18,591 nt of DNA, from NCBI GenBank assembly GCA_000416085.1, contig KE356579.1, forward strand, positions 1,521,690 to 1,540,280. The letters are read 5' to 3'. Each line of letters starts with the position of its first letter. The first letter of the stretch is position 1. This stretch comes from a halophilic archaeon J07HX64 (GTDB lineage Archaea > Halobacteriota > Halobacteria > Halobacteriales > Haloarculaceae). The translations under genes and the position numbers were made by a program. This document shows positions 2,975-16,112 of this stretch, one piece after another. Below the pieces are notes generated by a model, which searched no databases, was not told the origin of the DNA, and worked only from the letters and a program-made list of their open reading frames with translations.

Positions 2975-3622
2975 CTACTGGCGCATGGCGGCGAGCGTCT
3001 CGGCTGCTTCCCGGGCGGTTTTGAGGTGATCGCGCGCACGACGCGGGTCGTCTGCTTCCTCGGCGCGCCGACTGAACGCCGTGAGCGTCCGGACCAGTGA
3101 CGCCCGCGCGCTCTCGATGTCCGCCCCGCTGTCGGCAGTCTGTCCGGTGTCCCCCGGCGGGGTCGGCTGCCCGGTGTCACCGGTCGGCCCCGTGTGACCC
3201 CCCGTCTCGACCTGCCTCTCTGCTCCTGTCTGTTGTTGCCCCCGTCCAGTACCCCCCTCCGGACGGCCGCGTTGTTCCCGTGTCTGTGCGGTTTCGCCGT
3301 CCTCGCTGTCCTCGCCGCCGAACACGACGCGGGTGTCGTCATCCGGTGTCGTGACCTCGACCCCGGTGCCGTCAGACTCGTCTGTTCCGTCGTCGGTGTC
3401 GGTTCCGTTCTCTCGTTTCACCGGGCGTTCGCAGGCCGCACAGAACTCTTGCCCGTCGTACCGGAAGACGGGGTCACCACACTCCGAACAGTGGGCGTTT
3501 GTCATTGTTGCCCCCTGCAGGAGCAGTTCGCTCATCCGCTCTGTTGCCTCTCGCTCCTCTCTGTCCTGTTCGTACTTCTCCCGGAGACGCTCGCGCTCGG
3601 CCTCTCTGTCGAAATCACTCAT
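2975..3622 (-). CDS. SSSCA1/autoantigen p27-type zinc-ribbon protein
   Basis: Small soluble protein of 215 residues resembling the Sjogren's syndrome/scleroderma autoantigen 1 family found across archaea. Its cellular role is not established. The first 40 residues are a charged helix (REAERERLREKYEQDREE) ending in MSELLLQGATM, typical of the family. Next is one zinc ribbon, CSEC (C45, C48) and CAAC (C61, C64). Residues about 65-165 are a disordered acidic spacer rich in Asp, Glu, Thr and Gly. The last 45 residues are Ala/Arg/Glu-rich and look helical (SARASLVRTL to LAAMRQ). The start at 3622 follows a TATA-like box 27 bp upstream. It stands alone, convergent with rpiA and divergent from aglB. 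Confidence is high for the family and low for any function. Confidence 0.88.
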   Translation of the reverse strand: MSDFDREAERERLREKYEQDREEREATERMSELLLQGATMTNAHCSECGDPVFRYDGQEFCAACERPVKRENGTDTDDGTDESDGTGVEVTTPDDDTRVVFGGEDSEDGETAQTREQRGRPEGGTGRGQQQTGAERQVETGGHTGPTGDTGQPTPPGDTGQTADSGADIESARASLVRTLTAFSRRAEEADDPRRARDHLKTAREAAETLAAMRQ

Positions 3623-3789: not shown

Positions 3790-6700
3790 ATGAGCAACTG
3801 GCAGGACCAGCTCGGCGGTGAGGGCGAGACAAAGGCCCTCGTCGACTGGCTGGCAAAGTACTATCACTATCCGGTATTACTAGCTGTTATCGGGTTCGCC
3901 CTGTGGAACCGGGTCCGGAACTACTCGAATTTCATCGTGAACGATGAGATTCTCTACACCGGTAACGATCCCTGGTACCACATGCGCTCGACGGAGTACG
4001 TGATCAACAATTTTCCGGAGACGATGCCGTTCGACCCGTGGACGTTTTTTCCGCAAGGAACGGCGAACAGCCAGTTCGGAACAATCTTCGACCAGTTGAT
4101 CGCACTGGTTGCGCTGGTCGTCGGAGCCGGTTCGCCGAGCCAAGGAACCGGCCGGTTCGTGCTGCTGATTTCGCCGGCGATATTCGGTGTGATGGTCGCG
4201 CTCCCGGCCTACGTTATCGGGAGGCGTCTGGGCGGGCGATTCGGTGGTATCATCTCTGTTATGTTCATCGCCCTCGCCCCCGACCGGATGCTCGACGTGA
4301 GTCTGGCGGGGTTCCCCGACCACCAGGTCGCAGAGGTGCTGTTCATGGGGTTTGCGGTCGTCGGACTGATGGTTGCGCTCCGGGCGGCAGAGCGCGAGTT
4401 GCCCGTCCACGAACTGCTGTTGCAACGCGAGTTCGGACTCATCCGTGGGACGCTCGGCTGGTCACTGCTTGCAGGCGTCGCGTTCGGTGTGTATATGTGG
4501 GTGTGGCCGCCTGGTGTCTGGCTGTACGGCATCTTCGGTGTCTTCTTTATCATACACATGAGCGCAGAGCACGTCCGCGGACGGAGCCCGGAACACACGG
4601 CCTTTGTCGGAGCAACCGTGTTCGCGACGGCCGGACTCCTCCAGCTCGCCGCACTCCAGGAGCTCGGTCTCTCCGCGACCAGCCGAACGCTCCTGCAGCC
4701 GGCCTTTGGACTGGCCGGTGCGGTCGGTATCGTCGCGCTCGCCTGGTTCTCTCAGGAGGTCCACCGGCGTGAACGCTCCGCGCTCGCGTACCCCGCGGGT
4801 ATCGTCGGCTCTATAATCGGTGGGCTGGTGATCGTTGCGGTGCTTTCCCCGGGTCTGTTCGACTTCGCAATCAGCCAGTACGACCGGGCGTTCGGGGCCA
4901 CCATCGACGGGCTGAACACCGTTGTCTGGTTCGCCGATATCTCCATACAGGCTGGTGCCGAATCGACGATCGGTGAGGGGAGCCCCGGCAGTTTCGGTGA
5001 CATCAGAACCTTCTATCAGTTCGCTGCGTTCACGGCACTGCTCGGTGCCGCCGTGCTCATCGTGAGACAGGTCCTCGACGACAGGCCCAGAGGTGAGGAG
5101 CTGTTGCTTGTCGTAGTGAGTATCTTCATGATTATCGCGACGTTCACCCAGATCCGGTTTGCCTACTACCTGACAATCGTTATCGGTGGACTGAACGCCG
5201 CGCTGGTCGGGTCGATCATGCGGCTCGCCGGGACGCCGGACCGGGGGTCGTTGCCCGAAACCTACCAGGTTCTCACGATTATGGTGGTTCTGCTTGTGAT
5301 GTTCGTCCCGCTGCTGGGGGTTCCGCTCGTCGGTGGTGACAACACGGCAATCGAGCTTGCCGACTCGGAGAGCGAGCCCGGCAGTGTCACCGGTTGGGGT
5401 GACAGTCTCGACTGGATGGCCCAAAACACCCCGGAACCGGGCACGTACGCCAACCCCGACGGCGAGCCGATGGAGTACTACGGCCAGTACGAGCGCACCG
5501 ACAGCTTCGATTACCCGGACGGTGCCTACGGTGTGCTGTCGTGGTGGGACTACGGTCACTGGATAACCGCTAAAGGCGAACGGATTCCGAACGCCAACCC
5601 GTTCCAGCAGAACATCCGCCCGGCCGCCGAGTTCCTGCTCGCACAGGACGAGAGCGAGGGGCTCGATATCCTCGAGGAGGAGTTCCAAGACAGCGACACC
5701 GCGAAGACGCAGTACGTGATGATAGACGCGCTGATGGTCGAAACCGAGGCACGGTTCGGCGGGAAGTTCTTTGCCCCGGCAGACTTCGCCTCCGACTTCG
5801 AGCGCGGTGACTTCTACCGGCGGATGACCTCCGAGGCCGGCGACACCGCTATCGTGAACAAACAGAACTACTACGAGTCGATGATGGTCCGGCTGTACCA
5901 CTACCACGGGAGCAACGCCCAGCCGGACCCGTTTGTTACACAGTGGGCCGGACAGGAGACACGTGACAGCGACGGCAGAGCGTTCGTCGAGATGCCACAG
6001 GGTGCAAACGAGAGTGCAGTCGAGTTCGTCGACAACATATCGGCAGCGCGGAACATAACCGAGAACGACCCGACGAACCAGATCGGTGGTCTCGGTGCCA
6101 GTCCCGCTGAGGAGGTGCCCGCGCTCGAACACTTCCGTCTCGTCTACGACGACAGGGTACCAGCGGTTCCCCTTACCGGTGGTGAGGATGTGGCGTTCTC
6201 GGAGGCCCGCGACAACGGGCTCAGCTCTGCACCGTTTGCCACCGTTGCGAACCAGAACCTCCCTCTGATGAACAGCAGTCTCCGACAGGAAAGCACCGGC
6301 CAGAAGAGCGAACTGGACAAACTGTTCCGGACAACCCCCTCGTTCACGAAGACGTTCGAACGGGTGCCGGGTGCCACCATCCGGGGGTCGCTTCCCGACA
6401 ACGCCACCGAACACGAGGTGCTCAACGTCTCCGAGGGTGACAGCATCGGCATCAGTGTGCCGATGAACATGGTGCACGGTGAGCAGTTCACCTACTCGCA
6501 GACGGTCACCCTCGACGAGAACCTCGAGTTCAACACGACTGTTCCCTACTCGACGACCGGCTACGACGAGTACGGTCCCGAAGAGGGCTACACCAACGTG
6601 AGTGTCCGGGCCAACAGCTCCTACAACATCCAGACCTCCCGCGTGTTCGACAACAACGAGAGCGCATTCGTCTCGTTCGGTGCCAACGTGAACGTCACCG

Positions 6701-7068
6701 AGGGCCAGGTTATCGGCGAGGAAGATCCCGTTGTCGAGGTCCAACTCGAGGAGCGAACCCAGCCGTTCGACTTCAATCTCGGTGGTGGTGGAGGCAGCGG
6801 CGATGACAGTGGCAGTGATAGCAGTGACAGTGGTAGCAGTGGCGGTGACGGCAGTAACGGTGGCGACAGTGGCGGTGACGGCAGTAACGGTGGCGACAGT
6901 GGCGGTGACAGCAGTAACGGTGGCGATAACAGTGGCAGTGACAGCAGTGACGGTAGCGAAAGTAGTGGCGGAGGCACGGACGGCATGGCAGGGGCAGTCG
7001 GGTCGAGCGCCACGGCAGATGCGCGGAGTGTTGACACGGCGAGTTTCCAGCCGGTTCCGGGCGGATAA
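3790..7068 (+). CDS. aglB: Oligosaccharyltransferase AglB (archaeal STT3)
   Basis: Transfers the lipid-linked glycan from a dolichyl phosphate carrier to Asn in N-X-S/T sequons of proteins outside the cell. The 1092-residue protein has an N-terminal multi-span membrane half (residues about 25-515) and a soluble C-terminal half. Catalytic landmarks: the first metal-binding Asp in GNDPWYH (D60), the second loop motif AGFPDHQVAE (173-182), and the STT3 signature WWDYGHW at 585-591, with DALM at 646-649 compatible with the DxxK/DxxM motif that helps bind the sequon. The soluble half has about ten N-X-S/T sequons of its own. It ends in a Ser/Gly/Asp/Asn tail (about 998-1060) built on a 30 bp tandem repeat, followed by about 30 less repetitive residues with no second membrane anchor. 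The length is somewhat above the roughly 1050 residues of Haloferax AglB, mostly because of the tail. The next gene starts 3 nt after the stop, so the two are almost certainly co-transcribed. Confidence 0.97.
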   Translation: MSNWQDQLGGEGETKALVDWLAKYYHYPVLLAVIGFALWNRVRNYSNFIVNDEILYTGNDPWYHMRSTEYVINNFPETMPFDPWTFFPQGTANSQFGTIFDQLIALVALVVGAGSPSQGTGRFVLLISPAIFGVMVALPAYVIGRRLGGRFGGIISVMFIALAPDRMLDVSLAGFPDHQVAEVLFMGFAVVGLMVALRAAERELPVHELLLQREFGLIRGTLGWSLLAGVAFGVYMWVWPPGVWLYGIFGVFFIIHMSAEHVRGRSPEHTAFVGATVFATAGLLQLAALQELGLSATSRTLLQPAFGLAGAVGIVALAWFSQEVHRRERSALAYPAGIVGSIIGGLVIVAVLSPGLFDFAISQYDRAFGATIDGLNTVVWFADISIQAGAESTIGEGSPGSFGDIRTFYQFAAFTALLGAAVLIVRQVLDDRPRGEELLLVVVSIFMIIATFTQIRFAYYLTIVIGGLNAALVGSIMRLAGTPDRGSLPETYQVLTIMVVLLVMFVPLLGVPLVGGDNTAIELADSESEPGSVTGWGDSLDWMAQNTPEPGTYANPDGEPMEYYGQYERTDSFDYPDGAYGVLSWWDYGHWITAKGERIPNANPFQQNIRPAAEFLLAQDESEGLDILEEEFQDSDTAKTQYVMIDALMVETEARFGGKFFAPADFASDFERGDFYRRMTSEAGDTAIVNKQNYYESMMVRLYHYHGSNAQPDPFVTQWAGQETRDSDGRAFVEMPQGANESAVEFVDNISAARNITENDPTNQIGGLGASPAEEVPALEHFRLVYDDRVPAVPLTGGEDVAFSEARDNGLSSAPFATVANQNLPLMNSSLRQESTGQKSELDKLFRTTPSFTKTFERVPGATIRGSLPDNATEHEVLNVSEGDSIGISVPMNMVHGEQFTYSQTVTLDENLEFNTTVPYSTTGYDEYGPEEGYTNVSVRANSSYNIQTSRVFDNNESAFVSFGANVNVTEGQVIGEEDPVVEVQLEERTQPFDFNLGGGGGSGDDSGSDSSDSGSSGGDGSNGGDSGGDGSNGGDSGGDSSNGGDNSGSDSSDGSESSGGGTDGMAGAVGSSATADARSVDTASFQPVPGG
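6841..6930 (+). repeat. 30-bp tandem repeat, three copies, in the aglB tail
   Basis: Two identical 30 bp units at 6841-6870 and 6871-6900 are followed by a third with three changes at 6901-6930. They encode GGDGSNGGDS-like decapeptides. Shorter GGNAGT-type reiterations flank them from about 6781 to 6969. The period is a multiple of three, so copy number can change without breaking the frame. Confidence 0.9.
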
Positions 7069-7071
7069 CCG

Positions 7072-8091
7072 ATGCCCACGCAGGACGAGGAGGGGGTTGG
7101 AGGACAGGGTCGTCTGCTAAGCTATCTGCGGGGGCGACGGGAGACGGTTGCGGTGTATCTAAAGGGGTTCGCGATGGGGAGCGCGGCGACTGTTCCCGGT
7201 GTCTCCGGCGGGACGATAGCGCTCATTCTGGGTATCTACGACCGGTTCATCCGGGCGTTGACCGGTATCGACGGTCGACTGGCGGGACTCGCGACGGGTA
7301 TTCACCGAACGGAGGGTCGTGAGCAGTTCCGTGCGGCCGTACACGAACAGGACCTGCCCTTTTTGTTCGTGCTGTTCGCGGGTGTCGGGACGGCAGTGCT
7401 CACACTCGCCCGGGTTATCAGCGCGGCGCTCGCCGCCGCGCCGGGACCGATGTTCTCGTTCTTTGGCGGTCTCATCGCCGCGTCCGCGTTCGTGCTGTTC
7501 GACCGACGATGGCTGACCCGACTCCGGCACGGTGTCGCCGCCGTTGCGGGGTTCAGCATCGCCTTCCTCGTTGCGGGCGCCTCCGGTGTGGGGCTGTTCC
7601 CGGAGACACTCCCGGTCGTGTTCTTCGCGGCCGCCATCGCCATCTCCGGCATGGTTCTTCCGGGGCTGTCCGGCTCGTTTCTCCTGCTTCTTCTCGGACA
7701 GTACGAGTATCTCACCGACGTTGCGAGTCGGGTGATCGACCACGCGGCGACGCTCGCCTCGGGGACGGTTCCCTCGGGGCTGACCGCCGACCTGACGGTT
7801 ATTGCCACGTTCGGGTTCGGTGCTATCGCGGGCTTTTTTACGACAGCGCACGCTGTTAGCGCCGCGCTAGAGCGGTATCCTGGTGTCACGTTCGCGTTTC
7901 TCGTGAGTCTGATGCTCGGGGCACTCAACTACCCCGTTATTCGTATCTCCGAGGAGACCGACCTGTCGGCGGCGCCCCTCGCTGTCGTCGTGCTCGCGGC
8001 ACTTGCCGGCGCGGTGCTCGTGCTCGTGTTCGACCGCTACACGAAAGACCTCGAGTACGGCGAGAGCGATGCGTTTGCCGGCGAGAGGTAA
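7072..8091 (+). CDS. DUF368 membrane protein, candidate polyprenyl/dolichyl phosphate translocase
   Basis: Integral membrane protein of 339 residues with the DUF368 pattern. Two re-entrant-type motifs are repeated in the two halves: GSAATVPGVSGGT (residues 36-48) and ISGMVLPGLSGSF (191-203). Both lie between hydrophobic segments at about 95-125, 128-145, 155-175, 180-212, 240-265, 272-290 and 302-321, and the protein ends in a short acidic tail. Bacterial DUF368 proteins (PopT family) have been shown to return undecaprenyl phosphate across the membrane. It lies 3 nt after aglB, whose reaction leaves a dolichyl phosphate carrier on the outer face, so a recycling role is a reasonable inference. 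The start ATG at 7072 is the first after the aglB stop. The N terminus is polar (about 20 residues) before GRRETVAVYLKG. The family call is strong; the substrate is inferred. Confidence 0.92.
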   Translation: MPTQDEEGVGGQGRLLSYLRGRRETVAVYLKGFAMGSAATVPGVSGGTIALILGIYDRFIRALTGIDGRLAGLATGIHRTEGREQFRAAVHEQDLPFLFVLFAGVGTAVLTLARVISAALAAAPGPMFSFFGGLIAASAFVLFDRRWLTRLRHGVAAVAGFSIAFLVAGASGVGLFPETLPVVFFAAAIAISGMVLPGLSGSFLLLLLGQYEYLTDVASRVIDHAATLASGTVPSGLTADLTVIATFGFGAIAGFFTTAHAVSAALERYPGVTFAFLVSLMLGALNYPVIRISEETDLSAAPLAVVVLAALAGAVLVLVFDRYTKDLEYGESDAFAGER

Positions 8092-8119: not shown

Positions 8120-8791
8120 TCACTCCTCGTCGGCGTGGAACCGATGGCCACACTCCGGGCACTCGAGTTCGTCGTGACGTAGCGCGAGGCTGTGTTCGCG
8201 AACATCGCGCATCACCTCGGAGACACGCTCCTCAGCCTCCAACTCCTCCTCGACTGTCAGGTCGACATCCTCTACCTCGAGGAGGAACTTCGCCACCTCG
8301 GTGGACTCGTACATAACATCGTCGAGTTTCTCGGCGGTAAAAAAGTCGGTCATGGCGCCGTAGAGGAAGGTTGCGCCGGCCTTTCGGATCTTCTCCTCGA
8401 AGGAGGCGCGGGCCTGGTTCACCGCCTGTGGGGTGTATGTGTCGGTCATGAACGGCACCAGGCGAGGGAGGTTCTCGCCGATCTTGGTCATCTCGACACC
8501 GGTTTCGGTCCTGAAGTCCGCACAGAGTCGGGCGATAGCCCACTCCCGGGCGGTGATGTAGCTCCGCTCGCGCAGAAACTCGTTCGCCCGGTCGTAACTG
8601 CCACCCTCTATCTTGGAGAACTTGTCGTAGGTGCGCACGTCCTCGGGGACCGCCCGGTCACCGGCGTCACCGTCCGGGCGGCCGGTACCGGAGTCACGCC
8701 CTGGTCGACCGGAGTCGACCCGCTCGGTGCTGTCGGTGTCGTCACCGTCAGACGGTCCCTGTTCGGTCCCGGTGTTGGCGTCATCGACCAT
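8120..8791 (-). CDS. DUF5806 family haloarchaeal protein
   Basis: Soluble 223-residue protein of a family I recognise as conserved in haloarchaea (DUF5806). No function is known. The first 50 residues are a disordered acidic region. The conserved core runs from about residue 52 (DVRTYDKF) through YDRANEFLRERSYITAREW (66-84) and MTKIGENLP (101-109) to EVAKFLLEVEDVDLTVEEE (165-183), and looks all-helical. The end has a single CPECGHRFH motif (C211, C214, H216, H219), half of a zinc ribbon or a compact C2H2-like site. The start at 8791 is chosen over a longer in-frame reading because a TATA-like box lies 26 bp upstream and the extension would run antisense through the neighbouring gene. It is divergent from the UspA-like gene and convergent with the DUF368 gene, with only 28 bp between stop codons. 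Confidence 0.85.
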   Translation of the reverse strand: MVDDANTGTEQGPSDGDDTDSTERVDSGRPGRDSGTGRPDGDAGDRAVPEDVRTYDKFSKIEGGSYDRANEFLRERSYITAREWAIARLCADFRTETGVEMTKIGENLPRLVPFMTDTYTPQAVNQARASFEEKIRKAGATFLYGAMTDFFTAEKLDDVMYESTEVAKFLLEVEDVDLTVEEELEAEERVSEVMRDVREHSLALRHDELECPECGHRFHADEE

Positions 8792-9849: not shown

Positions 9850-11670
9850 TTACAGTTCGATATCGGCGACTACCGACTGCAGTTCCGCTCCGCTCAGGTC
9901 ACCGGCCACCACAACAGTCGTGCCGGCCTCACTCCAGACGGCAGCCGAGGCGAACCCACTCCCGAGGAGGCGGACCTCACGGCCGTCGACGGTCACTGTC
10001 TCACTCCCGTAGAGTGGAAGCTGGTCTATGTCGAGGCTCTGGTCCAACTGACCCACGACAATCGACGACTCTCCGTTGTTGTACGTGGCGGCGGCGATAT
10101 CTGTCGGCTCTATGCCCGAGACTGCGGTGATCGACGGTGCCTCACCGGTGAGGGTTGCCCCGCGCTCGAACGTCCACTCGTCACCGGGAACGGCAGCCTC
10201 GACCGATGTCACCGTCTCGAACGCTTCGGGGCTGTCCGCTGTCGTGACGCTCAGACTGGCCAACTCCGACGCTCCCGGTGGCTCGAACGTGCTGTCTGCC
10301 GGCGAGACACCGAATCTGGTGTCGACCACATCAACTGTCATCGTCAGACCCGGTGCCGTCGTCTCCTGCTTCAGCACCGTGTCCGACTCCGCGTCCGTCC
10401 ACAGACGGGTCTCTGCGTCGGTGTCCGGGTGCGTTATCAGGAGTTTGTTTGCCTCTCGCCCGTCGATACTCGTCGTGCCGACACGCTCGACTGTGACCGC
10501 CGACACGTTGAACTCACCCGTGAGCGACCCGTTGAGACGCTCTCTCAACTCGCCACTGTCCCAGTCCTCCGGGAGTTCGAACTCAGAGAGGTTGCCCGAG
10601 AAGTCGAACTCGGAGGAGTTGAACTCCGAGAACTCGTCCGGAAGCTCGAACCCGGAGAGATTGCTCGGGAGCTCAAATTCGGAGGAGCTGAACTCCGAGA
10701 GCTCGTCCGGAAGCTCGAACTCGGAGAGATTGCCCGGGAGCTCAAATTCGGAGGAGTTGAACTCCGAGAACTCGTCCGGAAGCTCGAACCCGGAGAGATT
10801 GCCTGAGAACTCAAACTCGGAGGAGCTGAACTCCGAGAACTCGTCGGGAAGCTCGAACCCGGAGAGATTGCCTGAGAACTCAAATTCGGAGAATTCGTCC
10901 GGAAGCTCGAACTCGGAGAGGTTATCCGGGAGCTCGAATCCGGAGAACTCGTCCGGAAGTTCAAATCCAGAGCCGTTTCCTGGGAAGTCGAACTCGGAGA
11001 ACGCGTCGGGAAGTTCTCCACCGGTGTCGGCGAAACCACCGCTGTCGATACTACTGGTGAAGCTGTCGTTATTGAGCAGATCAGCGACAGTGGCGTTCGA
11101 CGGCAGGTCGTCGAGCTCACCGGCGACACCTTCTGGTAGGTCACCGGCAACACCCTCGGGTAGTTCACCGTCGAAACTCTCGAGCAGTGTCGACAGTTCG
11201 GTGTCGAGACCGATGTTTCCGGGGAGGGCAGAGAGCCCGGAGCGGGCAGGCGCCTCGGTGCCGCCGCGGAGGCTGGCGGTCAGGCTGTTCCCGTCCCGGT
11301 CGATGACGCCCGTCAGACCGGTGACTGAATCGTAGCGCCAGACAGTCCCGTTGTCGACACCCGTTAGCACGTAGTATCCGCCGCTCGAGACGTTGAGCCG
11401 CATCTGGTCCGTGCCGGCGGCTGCGGCCGACGTCTCGAACTCGGTCGTCCTATCTGCAGCCTCGACGGTGACGACCGCGTCGGCCGAAACCGACTCGGCG
11501 TCCCCGTACGTTTCCTGTACATCTGACAGGATCTCTTCTCCTGTGCGCTCGTCGGACCCGGAGTCCATTGCTCCGAGTGCGAGCCCCGCAACCGCCGCGA
11601 CAGCGACCGTCGCGAGGAGGAGGGCAGCGACTGCGACTGACCGCGTCCGTGCGCTGTCGTCAAATCTCAT
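9850..11670 (-). CDS. LolA-like/DUF4367-like exported protein with sequon-rich repeat insertion
   Basis: Putative extracellular protein of 606 residues. The N terminus (residues 1-10) is charged and followed by a hydrophobic segment (11-34) ending LALGAMDSG. There is no lipobox cysteine, so it is a signal peptide or a membrane anchor. Residues 44-135 (GEEILSDVQETYGDAESVSADAVV onward) and 380-465 (VERVGTTSIDGREANKLLI to DSTFEPP) together resemble the two parts of a LolA/outer-membrane-lipoprotein-sorting-like beta fold. Residues about 485-606 resemble the DUF4367 domain usual in haloarchaeal relatives, including TTVVVAGDLSGAELQSVVADI. Between the two LolA-like parts sits a 150-residue repeat (219-369) of FELPDEFSE and FSGNLSG units with nine N-X-S sequons; the whole protein has 15. 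The ATG at 11670 was preferred over an in-frame ATG at 11694 because it directly precedes a typical signal sequence. It is divergent from the ABC transporter genes. Family call moderate; ligand unknown. Confidence 0.82.
   Translation of the reverse strand: MRFDDSARTRSVAVAALLLATVAVAAVAGLALGAMDSGSDERTGEEILSDVQETYGDAESVSADAVVTVEAADRTTEFETSAAAAGTDQMRLNVSSGGYYVLTGVDNGTVWRYDSVTGLTGVIDRDGNSLTASLRGGTEAPARSGLSALPGNIGLDTELSTLLESFDGELPEGVAGDLPEGVAGELDDLPSNATVADLLNNDSFTSSIDSGGFADTGGELPDAFSEFDFPGNGSGFELPDEFSGFELPDNLSEFELPDEFSEFEFSGNLSGFELPDEFSEFSSSEFEFSGNLSGFELPDEFSEFNSSEFELPGNLSEFELPDELSEFSSSEFELPSNLSGFELPDEFSEFNSSEFDFSGNLSEFELPEDWDSGELRERLNGSLTGEFNVSAVTVERVGTTSIDGREANKLLITHPDTDAETRLWTDAESDTVLKQETTAPGLTMTVDVVDTRFGVSPADSTFEPPGASELASLSVTTADSPEAFETVTSVEAAVPGDEWTFERGATLTGEAPSITAVSGIEPTDIAAATYNNGESSIVVGQLDQSLDIDQLPLYGSETVTVDGREVRLLGSGFASAAVWSEAGTTVVVAGDLSGAELQSVVADIEL
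10564..11016 (-). repeat. Phe/Glu/Asn-Leu-Ser peptide repeat with a 69-bp core
   Basis: Four 69 bp units at 10611-10679, 10680-10748, 10749-10817 and 10818-10886 each encode 23 residues: two nonapeptides (of the FELPDEFSE and FEFSGNLSG types) and a pentapeptide (FNSSE or FSSSE). More degenerate nonapeptides without the pentapeptide extend to 11016, and a last partial unit runs down to 10564. Sequons are at residues 232, 250, 268, 291, 305, 314, 337, 351 and 360. All copies are in frame and differ mostly by single bases. Confidence 0.93.
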
Positions 11671-11696
11671 CACTGTATTGTACGCGGCGCCCACAC

Positions 11697-11863: not shown

Positions 11864-12637
11864 ATGGCAACCTCGTCTTCTGACCCGGTGGTATCTATCG
11901 ATAATGTCAGAAAGGAGTATCAACTTGGCGGGACTGTGACAGCGCTCGACGGTGTCGACCTCCTGTTCGAGCCGGGGTCGTACACCGCGGTGATGGGTCC
12001 AAGCGGGTCCGGAAAGAGCACACTGTTGAATCTCGTTGGCGCACTGGACACACCGACGAGCGGTGACGTGATCGTCGCCGGCGAGAACGTGGCGACGCTC
12101 TCCGAGACCGAACGGGCCGCCCTCCGTGGGACCCGTATCGGCTTTATTTTCCAGACGTTCAATCTCATGCCGCGTCTGACCGCTGTGGAGAACGTCGCAC
12201 TGCCGCTGATGTTTGCCGAGTGGACCCGTTCACGCCGTCGCGAGCGGGCCGAGAGTCTGCTCACCGATGTCGGCCTGGGCAACCGGTTCGACCACCTCCC
12301 AAAGGAGTTGAGCGGTGGCCAGCGACAGCGGGTCGCGATCGCCCGTGCGCTCTCCTCGGACCCGGAGCTCATCCTCGCCGACGAACCGACCGGCAACGTC
12401 GATACCGAGACCGGTACGGAGATAATGTCACTTCTGCGTGACGCGAACGACCGGGGCAACGCGGTGTTGCTGGTCACCCACGAGCGGCGGATCGCCGAAC
12501 ACGCCGACCGGATTGTCAACGTCCGCGACGGGGTCGTCGAGGGTATCGAACAGGTCGAGCATACGACACCGGCCGAAACGGAGGTCGGGGCCGTCGGGAC
12601 CGGTGCCGGGCAGGGGGCGACGGAGGAGCGTCGATGA
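11864..12637 (+). CDS. ABC transporter ATP-binding protein, MacB/LolD type
   Basis: Cytoplasmic ATPase of 257 residues that powers the permease encoded next. All ABC motifs are present: Walker A GPSGSGKST (45-53), Q-loop FQTFN (Q97), signature LSGGQRQR (149-156), Walker B ILADEPTGNVD (170-180, E174) and H-loop VTHE (H206). The sequence TFNLMPRLTAVENVALPLMF after the Q-loop is typical of the MacB/LolD/FtsE branch, whose members drive mechanotransmission or lipid and lipoprotein extraction and not simple solute uptake. The last 30 residues are a Gly/Thr/Glu-rich tail. The start is uncertain: the ATG at 11864 is given, but a TATA box at 11851 predicts an RNA 5' end near 11880, and an in-frame GTG at 11888 would give a protein eight residues shorter with all motifs intact. 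The stop overlaps the permease start (ATGA at 12634-12637). Confidence 0.95.
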   Translation: MATSSSDPVVSIDNVRKEYQLGGTVTALDGVDLLFEPGSYTAVMGPSGSGKSTLLNLVGALDTPTSGDVIVAGENVATLSETERAALRGTRIGFIFQTFNLMPRLTAVENVALPLMFAEWTRSRRRERAESLLTDVGLGNRFDHLPKELSGGQRQRVAIARALSSDPELILADEPTGNVDTETGTEIMSLLRDANDRGNAVLLVTHERRIAEHADRIVNVRDGVVEGIEQVEHTTPAETEVGAVGTGAGQGATEERR

Positions 12638-13908
12638 AGGCGCGTGACGGCGTCCGAATCGCGCTCCGGTCGCTGACAGGCCACCGGCTCCGTTCGGCGC
12701 TGACAATCGTCGGTATCGTCATCGGTATCGGGACGGTCATAATCTTCGCTAGCTTCGGGACGAGCGTCCAGACCGACGTTGTCGGCGAGTTCGAGGACAC
12801 CGCCGCGAGTGAGATTCTGGTGGTGACCGGTGACGTCGGGTTGGACCCCAACGACGACTCGTTCGGTCCCCCACCGGAACCGGGTAATCTCGACAGTTTC
12901 GCGCTGCCGGGCGTGACAACACACGACCTGGAACAACTCCGGGATATCGATGGGGTGCAGTCTGTTATCCCGCGGGCCGAACTCGACACCGCAACAACAC
13001 TCGAGTACGACGGGCAGCGACAGCCACAGACCGTGATAGCGACCAGTCCGTCGGCGTTTACCGAGGACAACATCGTCAGCGGCCGGTCGTTCGAGCAGGG
13101 TGAGTCGGGTGTGATGGTGATAACCGAACGCGCCGCCGCGGCGTTCGAGGGCAACCTCTCGGTCGGCGAGACGGTCACAATCGAGCCCGGTGATGAGCCC
13201 GAAACACTCGAGATTGTCGGTATCGTGACACAGGCCCGCGGCGGGTTGAATCTCGTCGGCGGACTCAACAACGAGGCGTACGTCCCGTCGGACCCGTACT
13301 ACCAGGAGTACGGTGAGACAGTAAGATCACCCTCACAGGGTGTCGACCAGGCCGCGTACCGGCAGGCCACACTGGTCGCCGAACCGGATCAGGTGACCGA
13401 CACGAGTAGTGCCGTCGAGACCTACTTCGAACAGGAGTCCGACGCGGGGCAGGTCATCGAGGGCGGCGTCACGGTGCAGTCGGCCGCTGAAATCGTCGAC
13501 GGCATCGAGGAGGTGCTCGGGGACATCATCAGGCTGGTCTCCGGTATCGGTCTGCTGGCGCTGTTGGTGGGTGCGTTCGGCATCGCAAATATCATGCTCG
13601 TCAGCGTGACCGAGCGGACAAAGGAGATCGGTATCATGAAAGCAAACGGGGCGCGGAACCGTGCGGTGATGGGGTTGTTCCTCTCAGAGGCGGTGATGCT
13701 CGGGTTAGCGGGCGCGATGGTCGGGATCCCGGCCGGCCTCGCGGTCGGGTACGGCGCCTCGGCGTACGCCGAGGTCGGGTTCACCGTTCCCTACGGCTGG
13801 ATTCTCGTGGCGACCCTGATGGGGATTGCGACAGGTGTCGTCTCCGGGCTCTACCCGGCCTGGCGGGCGGCACGGGTCGACCCTATCGACGCGCTGCGCT
13901 ACGAGTGA
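12634..13908 (+). CDS. ABC transporter permease, MacB/FtsX type
   Basis: Membrane subunit of 424 residues with MacB_PCD plus FtsX architecture. One N-terminal TM helix (about 20-43, RSALTIVGIVIGIGTVIIF) is followed by a large extracellular domain (about 45-285, acidic) and three C-terminal TM helices (about 293-320, 342-368, 385-407). The cytoplasmic loop RTKEIGIMKANGARNRAVM and the terminal YPAWRAARVDPIDALRYE are the classic FtsX/MacB marks for coupling to the ATPase. It overlaps the ATPase gene by four bases, so the two form one transporter, probably a homodimer of each subunit. In bacteria this type moves lipoproteins, peptides or drugs, or transmits conformational force. The divergent LolA-like gene suggests an envelope lipid or lipoprotein role, but this is not shown. 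Confidence 0.95.
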   Translation: MKARDGVRIALRSLTGHRLRSALTIVGIVIGIGTVIIFASFGTSVQTDVVGEFEDTAASEILVVTGDVGLDPNDDSFGPPPEPGNLDSFALPGVTTHDLEQLRDIDGVQSVIPRAELDTATTLEYDGQRQPQTVIATSPSAFTEDNIVSGRSFEQGESGVMVITERAAAAFEGNLSVGETVTIEPGDEPETLEIVGIVTQARGGLNLVGGLNNEAYVPSDPYYQEYGETVRSPSQGVDQAAYRQATLVAEPDQVTDTSSAVETYFEQESDAGQVIEGGVTVQSAAEIVDGIEEVLGDIIRLVSGIGLLALLVGAFGIANIMLVSVTERTKEIGIMKANGARNRAVMGLFLSEAVMLGLAGAMVGIPAGLAVGYGASAYAEVGFTVPYGWILVATLMGIATGVVSGLYPAWRAARVDPIDALRYE

Positions 13909-14743: not shown

Positions 14744-15832
14744 TCACTCCCGGTCCTGTTCGTGCTCTCTCTCCTCGTTCGCGGAGTCCGGGTCGGAACC
14801 GCTCTCGGACGGTGACCCCGACCCCGACCCTGGATTGGAGAGAGAGTCACCCTCCGATGTTGATTCCGACCAGCCACCGGACCGTAGATCGGACAGTGAC
14901 TCGGACTTTGAGTCGATATCGGACGACGTTCTGGAGCGGGACTCGGGTTTGAGTTCGGGGTCAGATTCGGATTCGGAGTCGGACCCGGGGAGAGAGTCGG
15001 GGTCCGGTCCGGACCCGGAGACGGAGTCGATGTCCGGCCCCGACCCGGAGAGTGACTCGGGGTCGGATTCAGTGCCGGAGAGGGAGACGGGGTCCGGTCC
15101 GGACCCGGAGACGGAGTCGACGTCCGGCCCCGACCCGGAGAGTGACCCAGACTCGGATTCAGCACCGGAGACAGGGTCGATGTCCGGTCCGGTCCCGGAG
15201 ACGGAGTCGACGTCGGGCCCCGACCCGGAGAGTACCCCCGACCCTGACCCGGAGCGAGAACGCGAGTCCACACCCGGTTCGGACCGGGAGAGTGACTCGG
15301 ATTCGGGTCCAGTCCCGGAGACCGAGTCGGGGTCTATCTCGGTTCCGGGCGGAAAATCCGGCTCCGGTTCGGCCTCGGAGACAGAGTCGATATCGACCCC
15401 GGTTCCGGATGGGGAACCCGATTCCTGTTCCGTTCCTGGGACAGAGGAGGCCCCGGAGACGGGCTCCGTCCCCGATTCGGCCTCGGAGACAGACTCGAGA
15501 GCGTTTCCCGAGTCGGATCGAAGCTGTTGCGGTTCCGCACCGGAACTGTGATTCCGTTTTGATCTGTCTCGCGACACGCTGTCGCCGGGTTCCCCGATTT
15601 CGTCGCGTGCCCGGTCCCCCTGTGCTGTGGACGTGCCCGACGTGGTGTACCATCTGGCGAGGAGTCCGACGAACAGCGCGCCGCCGACCCCAGAAACGGC
15701 GGCGACGATACCCAGTTCCTGCCCGGTGGCCAGCAGTCCGACCGTCGCTATCGCTGTCACCGCGAGTACGACGATGCTGGCGACAAACTGTCGTGACATC
15801 TCGACCCCGTCCGCGTCGCGCTCTCGCTGCAT
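14744..15832 (-). CDS. Two-TM membrane protein with long Ser/Asp/Gly/Glu repeat tail
   Basis: Protein of 362 residues with no recognised domain. After 15 charged residues come two hydrophobic helices, about 16-36 (FVASIVVLAVTAIATVGLLA) and 40-60 (LGIVAAVSGVGGALFVGLLA), with a very short loop. From about residue 85 to the end the chain is low complexity: Ser, Asp, Gly, Glu and Pro in SGSGPDVDSVSG-like units, built on a 90 bp DNA repeat. By the positive-inside rule both ends and the tail would be cytoplasmic, although SD-rich tails are better known outside cells. Only one sequon is present. The start at 15832 is chosen because an excellent TATA box lies 28 bp upstream; an in-frame ATG at 15799 is the alternative. 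The opposite strand is also open over most of the tail, but lacks a promoter or any non-repetitive domain. Confidence 0.75.
   Translation of the reverse strand: MQRERDADGVEMSRQFVASIVVLAVTAIATVGLLATGQELGIVAAVSGVGGALFVGLLARWYTTSGTSTAQGDRARDEIGEPGDSVSRDRSKRNHSSGAEPQQLRSDSGNALESVSEAESGTEPVSGASSVPGTEQESGSPSGTGVDIDSVSEAEPEPDFPPGTEIDPDSVSGTGPESESLSRSEPGVDSRSRSGSGSGVLSGSGPDVDSVSGTGPDIDPVSGAESESGSLSGSGPDVDSVSGSGPDPVSLSGTESDPESLSGSGPDIDSVSGSGPDPDSLPGSDSESESDPELKPESRSRTSSDIDSKSESLSDLRSGGWSESTSEGDSLSNPGSGSGSPSESGSDPDSANEEREHEQDRE
15001..15270. repeat. 90-bp tandem repeat, three copies, in the SD-tail gene
   Basis: Units begin at 15001, 15091 and 15181 with the same GTCCGGTCCGG start and the same CCGGAGACGGAGTCGA block in register. 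The third unit diverges towards its end. Shorter related reiterations (GGGTCGGATTC, CCGGAGAC) cover about 14810-15500. The repeat is rich in self-complementary CCGGNCCGG-like runs, so both strands read as Ser/Asp/Glu/Gly/Pro-rich protein. Confidence 0.85.
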
Positions 15833-15856
15833 CGTCTGAGATAACAGGGTACAGGG

Positions 15857-15864
15857 ATATAAAT
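15857..15864 (-). promoter_or_regulatory. TATA box of the SD-tail gene
   Basis: The minus strand reads ATTTATAT, the strongest TATA match on this strand, about 28 bp before the ATG at 15832. It is the main argument for that start codon and for the minus strand being the coding strand. Confidence 0.6.
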
Positions 15865-16112
15865 CGACCGGGCATCTGTCGTGACAGAACACCCGCAGTA
15901 ACAGTTACACCACCCCCGGGGATAACGAGGGTAGCAACAACCGACTGCGATGGCGTTCCCTCAGTTTCACTCTCCTGTATATCCCGTCGGGTAAACGGAC
16001 TCACAGGGGCAAAACCGGTGAGGCGGCAGTTCAGTGTCGACCTCTCCCGAACCCACGGGGTCCGGCACCGGGCGACAGGAGCCACAGGAGGTGCCGTATC
16101 CCGTGACTGGAA

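Follow-up and report, generated by a model that had tools for sequence, protein, structure and literature searches.

The closest described systems to the gene considered here are the PopT/DUF368 translocases, such as VCA0040 of Vibrio cholerae and SAOUHSC_00846 of Staphylococcus aureus. The gene is a popT-type gene that follows aglB in a stretch of 18,591 nucleotides (nt) from the halophilic archaeon J07HX64 (GCA_000416085.1, contig KE356579.1, positions 1,521,690-1,540,280 of the forward strand), and this whole stretch is referred to as the window. According to the accessible portions of the reports, bacterial DUF368 proteins return undecaprenyl phosphate (C55-P) (PMC12826051, PMC12893004). 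A haloarchaeal member of the same family, HVO_RS12060 of Haloferax volcanii, gave at least partial complementation of a V. cholerae deletion mutant, and the accessible text of that study raises the translocation of dolichol phosphate as an implication (Sit et al. 2022, PMC9876793); no demonstration of activity on dolichyl phosphate was found in the accessible texts. The H. volcanii protein was tested in a bacterium, and the main text of the report draws no link to AglB, with the terms 'oligosaccharyl' and 'glycosylation' occurring 0 times. The UptA/DedA-family C55-P translocases (PF09335) are proposed, in the sections available, to do the same job of returning a polyprenyl phosphate. In contrast to these proteins, the PopT-type protein belongs to another Pfam family, and DedA-type proteins represent a possible redundant route.

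Published haloarchaeal pathways, as far as their accessible text goes, assemble glycans on dolichyl phosphate (DolP) (PMC3871713, PMC8674786, PMC11980604), and a DolP carrier with outward flippases is described for H. volcanii and Halobacterium salinarum (PMC3871713, PMC11980604). Like the PopT-type protein in its proposed function, AglR, Agl15 and Agl29 are proposed to carry material linked to DolP across the membrane in this pathway. Unlike it, they are assigned in these partial texts to outward movement of the charged carrier and not to return of the empty one. In the accessible haloarchaeal N-glycosylation literature, no protein was found to be assigned to return of the empty carrier, and the word stem 'recycl' is absent from the main texts of PMC3871713, PMC8674786, PMC11980604 and PMC10384203.

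Homology and gene coupling suggest that the PopT-type protein of the window functions as a polyprenyl phosphate return translocase, and return of DolP after the action of AglB is considered the best explanation of the locus, with a probability of about 0.68. It is proposed that aglB and popT constitute a two-gene unit, which is probably co-transcribed. AglB would transfer the glycan from dolichyl monophosphate to asparagine at the outer face of the membrane, and this transfer would release DolP on that face. The PopT-type protein, which is internally duplicated and is predicted to contain two broken helices, would then return the DolP to the inner leaflet, where the next glycan could be assembled. 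The features of the locus, in window coordinates, are as follows.

3790..7068, forward strand: aglB, oligosaccharyltransferase of 1092 amino acids (TIGR04154, PF02516, PF22627, PF18079)
5542..5556, forward strand: WWDYG motif of AglB, residues 585-589 (sequence read)
7069..7071, forward strand: gap of 3 nt between the aglB stop and the popT start
7072..8091, forward strand: popT-type gene (DUF368/PF04018), 339 amino acids, candidate DolP return translocase (PF04018, aglB linkage, model)
7186..7188, forward strand: codon 39 of popT, encoding Ala in place of the Asp of the family (alignment of 182 rows)
7195..7212, forward strand: PGVSGG, first predicted broken-helix motif, popT residues 42-47 (model, hhalign)
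7660..7677, forward strand: PGLSGS, second predicted broken-helix motif, popT residues 197-202 (model, hhalign)
2975-3622, opposite strand: gene for a p27-like protein flanking the pair (profile match)
8120-8779, convergent: DUF5806 gene flanking the pair (profile match)

The open reading frames (ORFs), profile scores and motifs agree with the arrangement described in the original prediction, in which a 339-residue DUF368 protein containing both PGVSGG and PGLSGS is encoded 3 nt behind a complete AglB. The window AglB belongs to TIGR04154, scoring 774.8 bits (cut-off 450) over profile positions 2-830 of 831, and also exceeds the Pfam cut-offs of PF02516, PF22627 and PF18079. GNDPW is located at residue 58, TIGE at residue 393 and WWDYG at residue 585, and these motifs are presumed to have catalytic meaning. 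The C-terminus of the protein is a low-complexity tail rich in Ser, Gly and Asp, encoded in a region with a 30-nt tandem repeat of 4.9 copies (window 6806-6954).

Recurrence of the aglB-popT pair in the Halobacteria

A broad survey of 391 genomes of the class found PF04018 in 386 and TIGR04154 in 387. Linkage was counted in a sample of 126 genomes, which, apart from that of the window, have a completeness of 90% or more; 124 of them hold both genes above the cut-offs. Two PF04018 fragments, each the second match in its genome (G074 and G090), were left out of the count, as were AglB matches below the cut-off. With linkage defined as a popT gene on the strand of aglB and no more than 5 kb downstream of it, the two genes are linked in 87 of the 124 genomes, representing 37 of 51 genera and all eight families that hold both genes (f1, 10/25; f2, 12/12; f3, 12/30; f4, 43/47; f6, 2/2; f7, 3/3; f8, 4/4; f9, 1/1). 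Because it is found again in so many genomes, the arrangement in the window is not due to chance.

The neighbourhoods of the linked genes were compared in 38 loci, one for each of the 37 linked genera plus the window, all of them chosen as linked, with neighbour families drawn from ORFs of at least 80 amino acids picked by homology and not from a gene caller. In this set popT is the immediate next gene after aglB in 35 of the 38 loci and is on the same strand in every one. The family ranking second among shared neighbours, a multi-copy one found in 22 of 38 loci, lies upstream, mostly on the opposite strand, and the families that follow it occur in 13, 11 and 10 loci. When ORFs are read from their longest start, aglB and popT overlap in 11 loci, are at most 10 nt apart in 24 and at most 160 nt apart in 35. 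The three exceptional loci contain one or two intervening genes that resemble, by eye, UDP-sugar dehydrogenase and nucleotidyltransferase genes. Recurrent adjacency of DUF368 genes and aglB across the haloarchaea was the test put forward in the original prediction, and the linkage and next-gene counts confirm it. Class-wide inheritance of synteny without selection was considered as an explanation and is unlikely, as other aglB neighbours turn over between genera while popT stays, at least among loci chosen as linked.

A PF04018 search of genome contigs that started from a single protein returned no loci, and an alignment-based search returned at least 80. Among the matches listed are 17 haloarchaeal loci from named organisms, selected by similarity and serving as examples rather than as a sample; 15 of them have AglB immediately upstream. 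These include the loci of Haloferax mucosum, Haladaptatus salinisoli, Halorhabdus amylolytica, Natrinema ejinorense and Halorubrum coriense, and AglB was not found at the loci of Halonotius roseus and Halobellus rufus. Within the genus of the window, the PopT-type protein is present in 17 of 18 genomes, and AglB is directly upstream in the fetched flank of 14 of the 17 loci; two of the other three are near a contig end.

A tree of 77 PopT-type proteins places the 62 haloarchaeal rows in a single clade (100/99), separate from the 15 bacterial or methanogen rows, and the linked or unlinked label requires five changes. Three of the 20 unlinked rows are found singly among linked relatives, and the remaining 17 group together in a clade (99/97) that lies within linked f4. 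The genomes carrying this clade (loci L102-L121) belong to f1, f3 and f8, yet the proteins are nested among f4-type proteins. Apparently, horizontal transfer carried the unlinked version into these three other families, where it replaced the aglB-linked copy. Linked and unlinked copies occur together in five of the 126 genomes (G005, G025, G091 and G107 in f3, and G044 in f8). The simplest reading of the tree is that the pairing is ancestral and that one unlinked version later spread between families, often replacing the linked copy. Methanobacteriaceae, which make pseudomurein, carry PF04018 proteins too, and these form a separate deep clade (L159, L164, L184, L203).

Family assignment and predicted fold of the PopT-type protein

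The 339-residue protein scores 197.8 bits against PF04018 (Pfam cut-off 26), the VCA0040-like, undecaprenyl phosphate translocase-like family formerly called DUF368, and is the only match to this family in the window genome, a one-contig assembly of 2.98 Mb estimated to be 72% complete. The scores against the NCBIfam polyprenyl-phosphate transporter equivalogs NF052564 and NF052563 are 171.5 and 88.6 bits, below the cut-offs of 400 bits, and the protein is therefore named PopT-type and not PopT. It shares with VCA0040 and SAOUHSC_00846 the Pfam family and the PGxSG motifs, two of which are present in two related halves. It differs from PopT in its placement in a separate haloarchaeal clade, in its equivalog scores and in the absence of Asp39. 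The likely carrier would also differ, being DolP for N-glycosylation rather than undecaprenyl phosphate for peptidoglycan.

The halves of the protein align with each other at an hhalign probability of 97.1 (E 6.9e-11), with PGVSGG aligned to PGLSGS, indicating that the PopT-type protein is an internal duplication. A structure model built from 38 sequences has a mean predicted local distance difference test score (pLDDT) of 89.2 and a predicted template modelling score (pTM) of 0.84. In the first half of the model, PGVSGG forms a break between a helix at residues 12-39 and a short helix at residues 46-52; in the second half, PGLSGS does so between helices at residues 180-195 and 201-207. The two halves may be oriented in opposite directions in the membrane. 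Among solved structures, no relative was detected by sequence (best E 0.33) or by fold (best E 0.093). Across 62 bacterial or methanogen rows, neither PGxSG motif varies at its P, G, S and G positions. Residue 286 was also considered as a possible signal, being Arg in most haloarchaeal rows and Asn in the window, and was dropped as Asn is found in 43 of the 62 bacterial or methanogen rows.

Proposed carrier return and competing explanations

The nature of the carrier was probed through PF00953 (GPT-type), whose members initiate glycans linked through pyrophosphate. No PF00953 match was found in the 126 Halobacteria, including the window genome, or in the H. volcanii control, and the same search was positive in Methanocaldococcus jannaschii and Sulfolobus acidocaldarius. 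A start linked to dolichyl pyrophosphate is consequently not expected in these genomes, which is consistent with glycans being built on dolichyl monophosphate. If so, AglB would leave DolP outside, and this product could be returned without a phosphatase.

The proposal that the PopT-type protein returns DolP, as made in the original prediction, draws support from the linkage and next-gene counts described above, and the NCBIfam scores and the loss of Asp39 count against it. Several further results weigh on the same side. The two genes are unlinked in 37 of the 124 genomes, sharing a contig at a distance of 122 kb or more in 22 and lying on different contigs in 15. G021 (98% complete, 120 contigs) contains AglB and has no PF04018 match, G226 (97% complete) contains PF04018 and has no AglB match, and L224, the third unpaired locus in the genus of the window, lacks AglB in the 1.5 kb upstream. 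DedA/VTT proteins (PF09335) are found in all 126 genomes, with three in the window genome, and another return route for the carrier may therefore exist. The coupling was also not found beyond the class. Of 294 genomes of the phylum that were searched, 53 are of the same order or nearer and about 241 were counted as outside, a figure that includes 185 without a PF04018 match that were taken as outside the class. PF04018 is present in 37 of these roughly 241 genomes, all 37 with an STT3 match, and the two were within 5 kb of each other in 0 of the 37, of which only 14 have both on one contig and are testable, the other 23 having them on different contigs. In four outside genomes of one family 12-15 kb separate PF04018 and STT3, which share a strand; in one other genome the distance is 20 kb and the two are on opposite strands. 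A wider archaeal linkage of aglB and popT was rejected on these counts, and tight coupling is, on present evidence, a haloarchaeal trait. Finally, the window genome contains a second full-length AglB (G000:C1:1465111-1467759, L099; 759 bits) about 58 kb upstream, which is 33% identical to the window AglB and has no PF04018 gene beside it. Separate observations on AglB copies are that a partial AglB match lies near the second gene (G000:C1:1469370-1470077), and that G117, the sole other genus member listed, has no second AglB match above 119 bits among the matches listed. Co-absence of the two genes (five of the 391 genomes lack PF04018, four of them without a strong AglB match either) was given no weight, because a missing contig across adjacent genes would look alike.

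The genomes in which popT is located elsewhere bear on a broader explanation, in which the PopT-type protein returns polyprenyl phosphates generally, serving N-glycans, exopolysaccharide and other DolP users, and the aglB pairing only sets expression and confers no dedicated role. This explanation is compatible with DolP return after AglB. It would account for the apparent replacement of the linked copy by the 17-row unlinked clade in several lineages and for the 12 outside-class loci whose neighbours were read, none of which has aglB adjacent. A lipid-carrier-started exopolysaccharide pathway is, moreover, suggested for Haloarcula hispanica in the accessible part of one report (PMC9943897). 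Such a general role is nevertheless improbable as the full account, given that AglB is the one constant neighbour in the 38 haloarchaeal loci, chosen as linked, and that the linkage extends to eight families. The position of popT beside an enzyme that needs charged lipid outside could instead suggest that the PopT-type protein supplies AglB by moving the charged DolP-glycan to the outer face. This was set aside as the leading explanation and is very unlikely, since the accessible texts already propose AglR and Agl15 (PMC3871713) and Agl29 (PMC11980604) for the step, and the bacterial DUF368 proteins are described, in the partial texts available, as acting on uncharged C55-P.

Return of DolP to the inner leaflet must also be weighed against the state of residue 39. 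Asp39 is the sole charged residue conserved above 90% in 182 aligned proteins (D in 96%) and is located at the end of the first helix, shortly before PGVSGG. The requirement for Asp before the first motif was read off this alignment and is not a published criterion, and the window protein does not conform to it. With duplicates removed, Asp39 is found in 30/30 linked, 19/19 unlinked and 60/62 bacterial or methanogen rows, and Ala is found in the window protein and in L222 and L223, its nearest relatives (74-77% identical); the 11 other genus members in the alignment retain Asp39. The loss of a near-invariant charged residue raises the prospect that, in the window lineage only, activity was lost or changed and the pairing was simply inherited from a normally working ancestor, which is compatible with DolP return in the class as a whole. 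However, the three Ala39 sequences are intact, the ratio of nonsynonymous to synonymous substitution rates (dN/dS) among them is 0.17-0.19, and AglB is directly upstream of popT in all three loci. The dN/dS values indicate that the variant is maintained and, together with the intact sequences, make loss of all function unlikely; the explanation is accordingly a rather remote one. These results suggest that the Ala39 lineage changed how the PopT-type protein is driven. A more elaborate scenario, offered as speculation and doubtful in its entirety, is that ancestral Halobacteria coupled AglB to a dedicated DolP return translocase within a single operon, so that the carrier cycle was closed at its very source, and that the translocase of the window lineage, having lost the only conserved acidic residue of the family while under purifying selection, now operates with ion coupling that is altered or missing, one possibility being a downhill scramblase.

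The original prediction stated that, to its knowledge, the archaeal enzyme for carrier return had not been established. The idea that a DUF368 protein has this role is new only in part, as it was foreshadowed by Sit et al. 2022 (PMC9876793), whose accessible text does not report the coupling to aglB. The word stems 'residue' and 'aspart' are likewise absent from its main text, and no report on Asp39 is found there. A search of the open literature, with subscription papers and preprints outside its scope, found no report of aglB-DUF368 coupling, and the parts not found described are this conserved coupling and the loss of Asp39.

Other genes of the window and significance

Elsewhere in the window, a 614-residue protein (9850-11694, reverse strand) contains ELPDEFSEF-type repeats encoded by a 69-nt DNA repeat of 4.7 copies, which are spanned by a Pfam LRR_5 match, perhaps through periodicity alone. 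A MacB-type ATP-binding cassette (ABC) transporter pair, comprising an ATPase and an FtsX/MacB permease, is divergent from this gene (11864-13908, forward strand). A 382-residue protein (14744-15892, reverse strand) has a long acidic tail of SGSGPD/VDSVSG repeats with a 90-nt DNA repeat, and no Pfam match was found for it.

The gene after the oligosaccharyltransferase gene in eight haloarchaeal families is a direct and easily tested candidate for carrier return, and H. volcanii and Hbt. salinarum, in which genes can be deleted, are suited to such tests. The Ala39 lineage is a natural experiment on what drives PopT-type proteins. With GPT-type enzymes undetected in the 126 genomes, pyrophosphate removal may be unnecessary in the haloarchaeal cycle, and the proposed two-gene unit would then hold the release and return steps of the cycle together.

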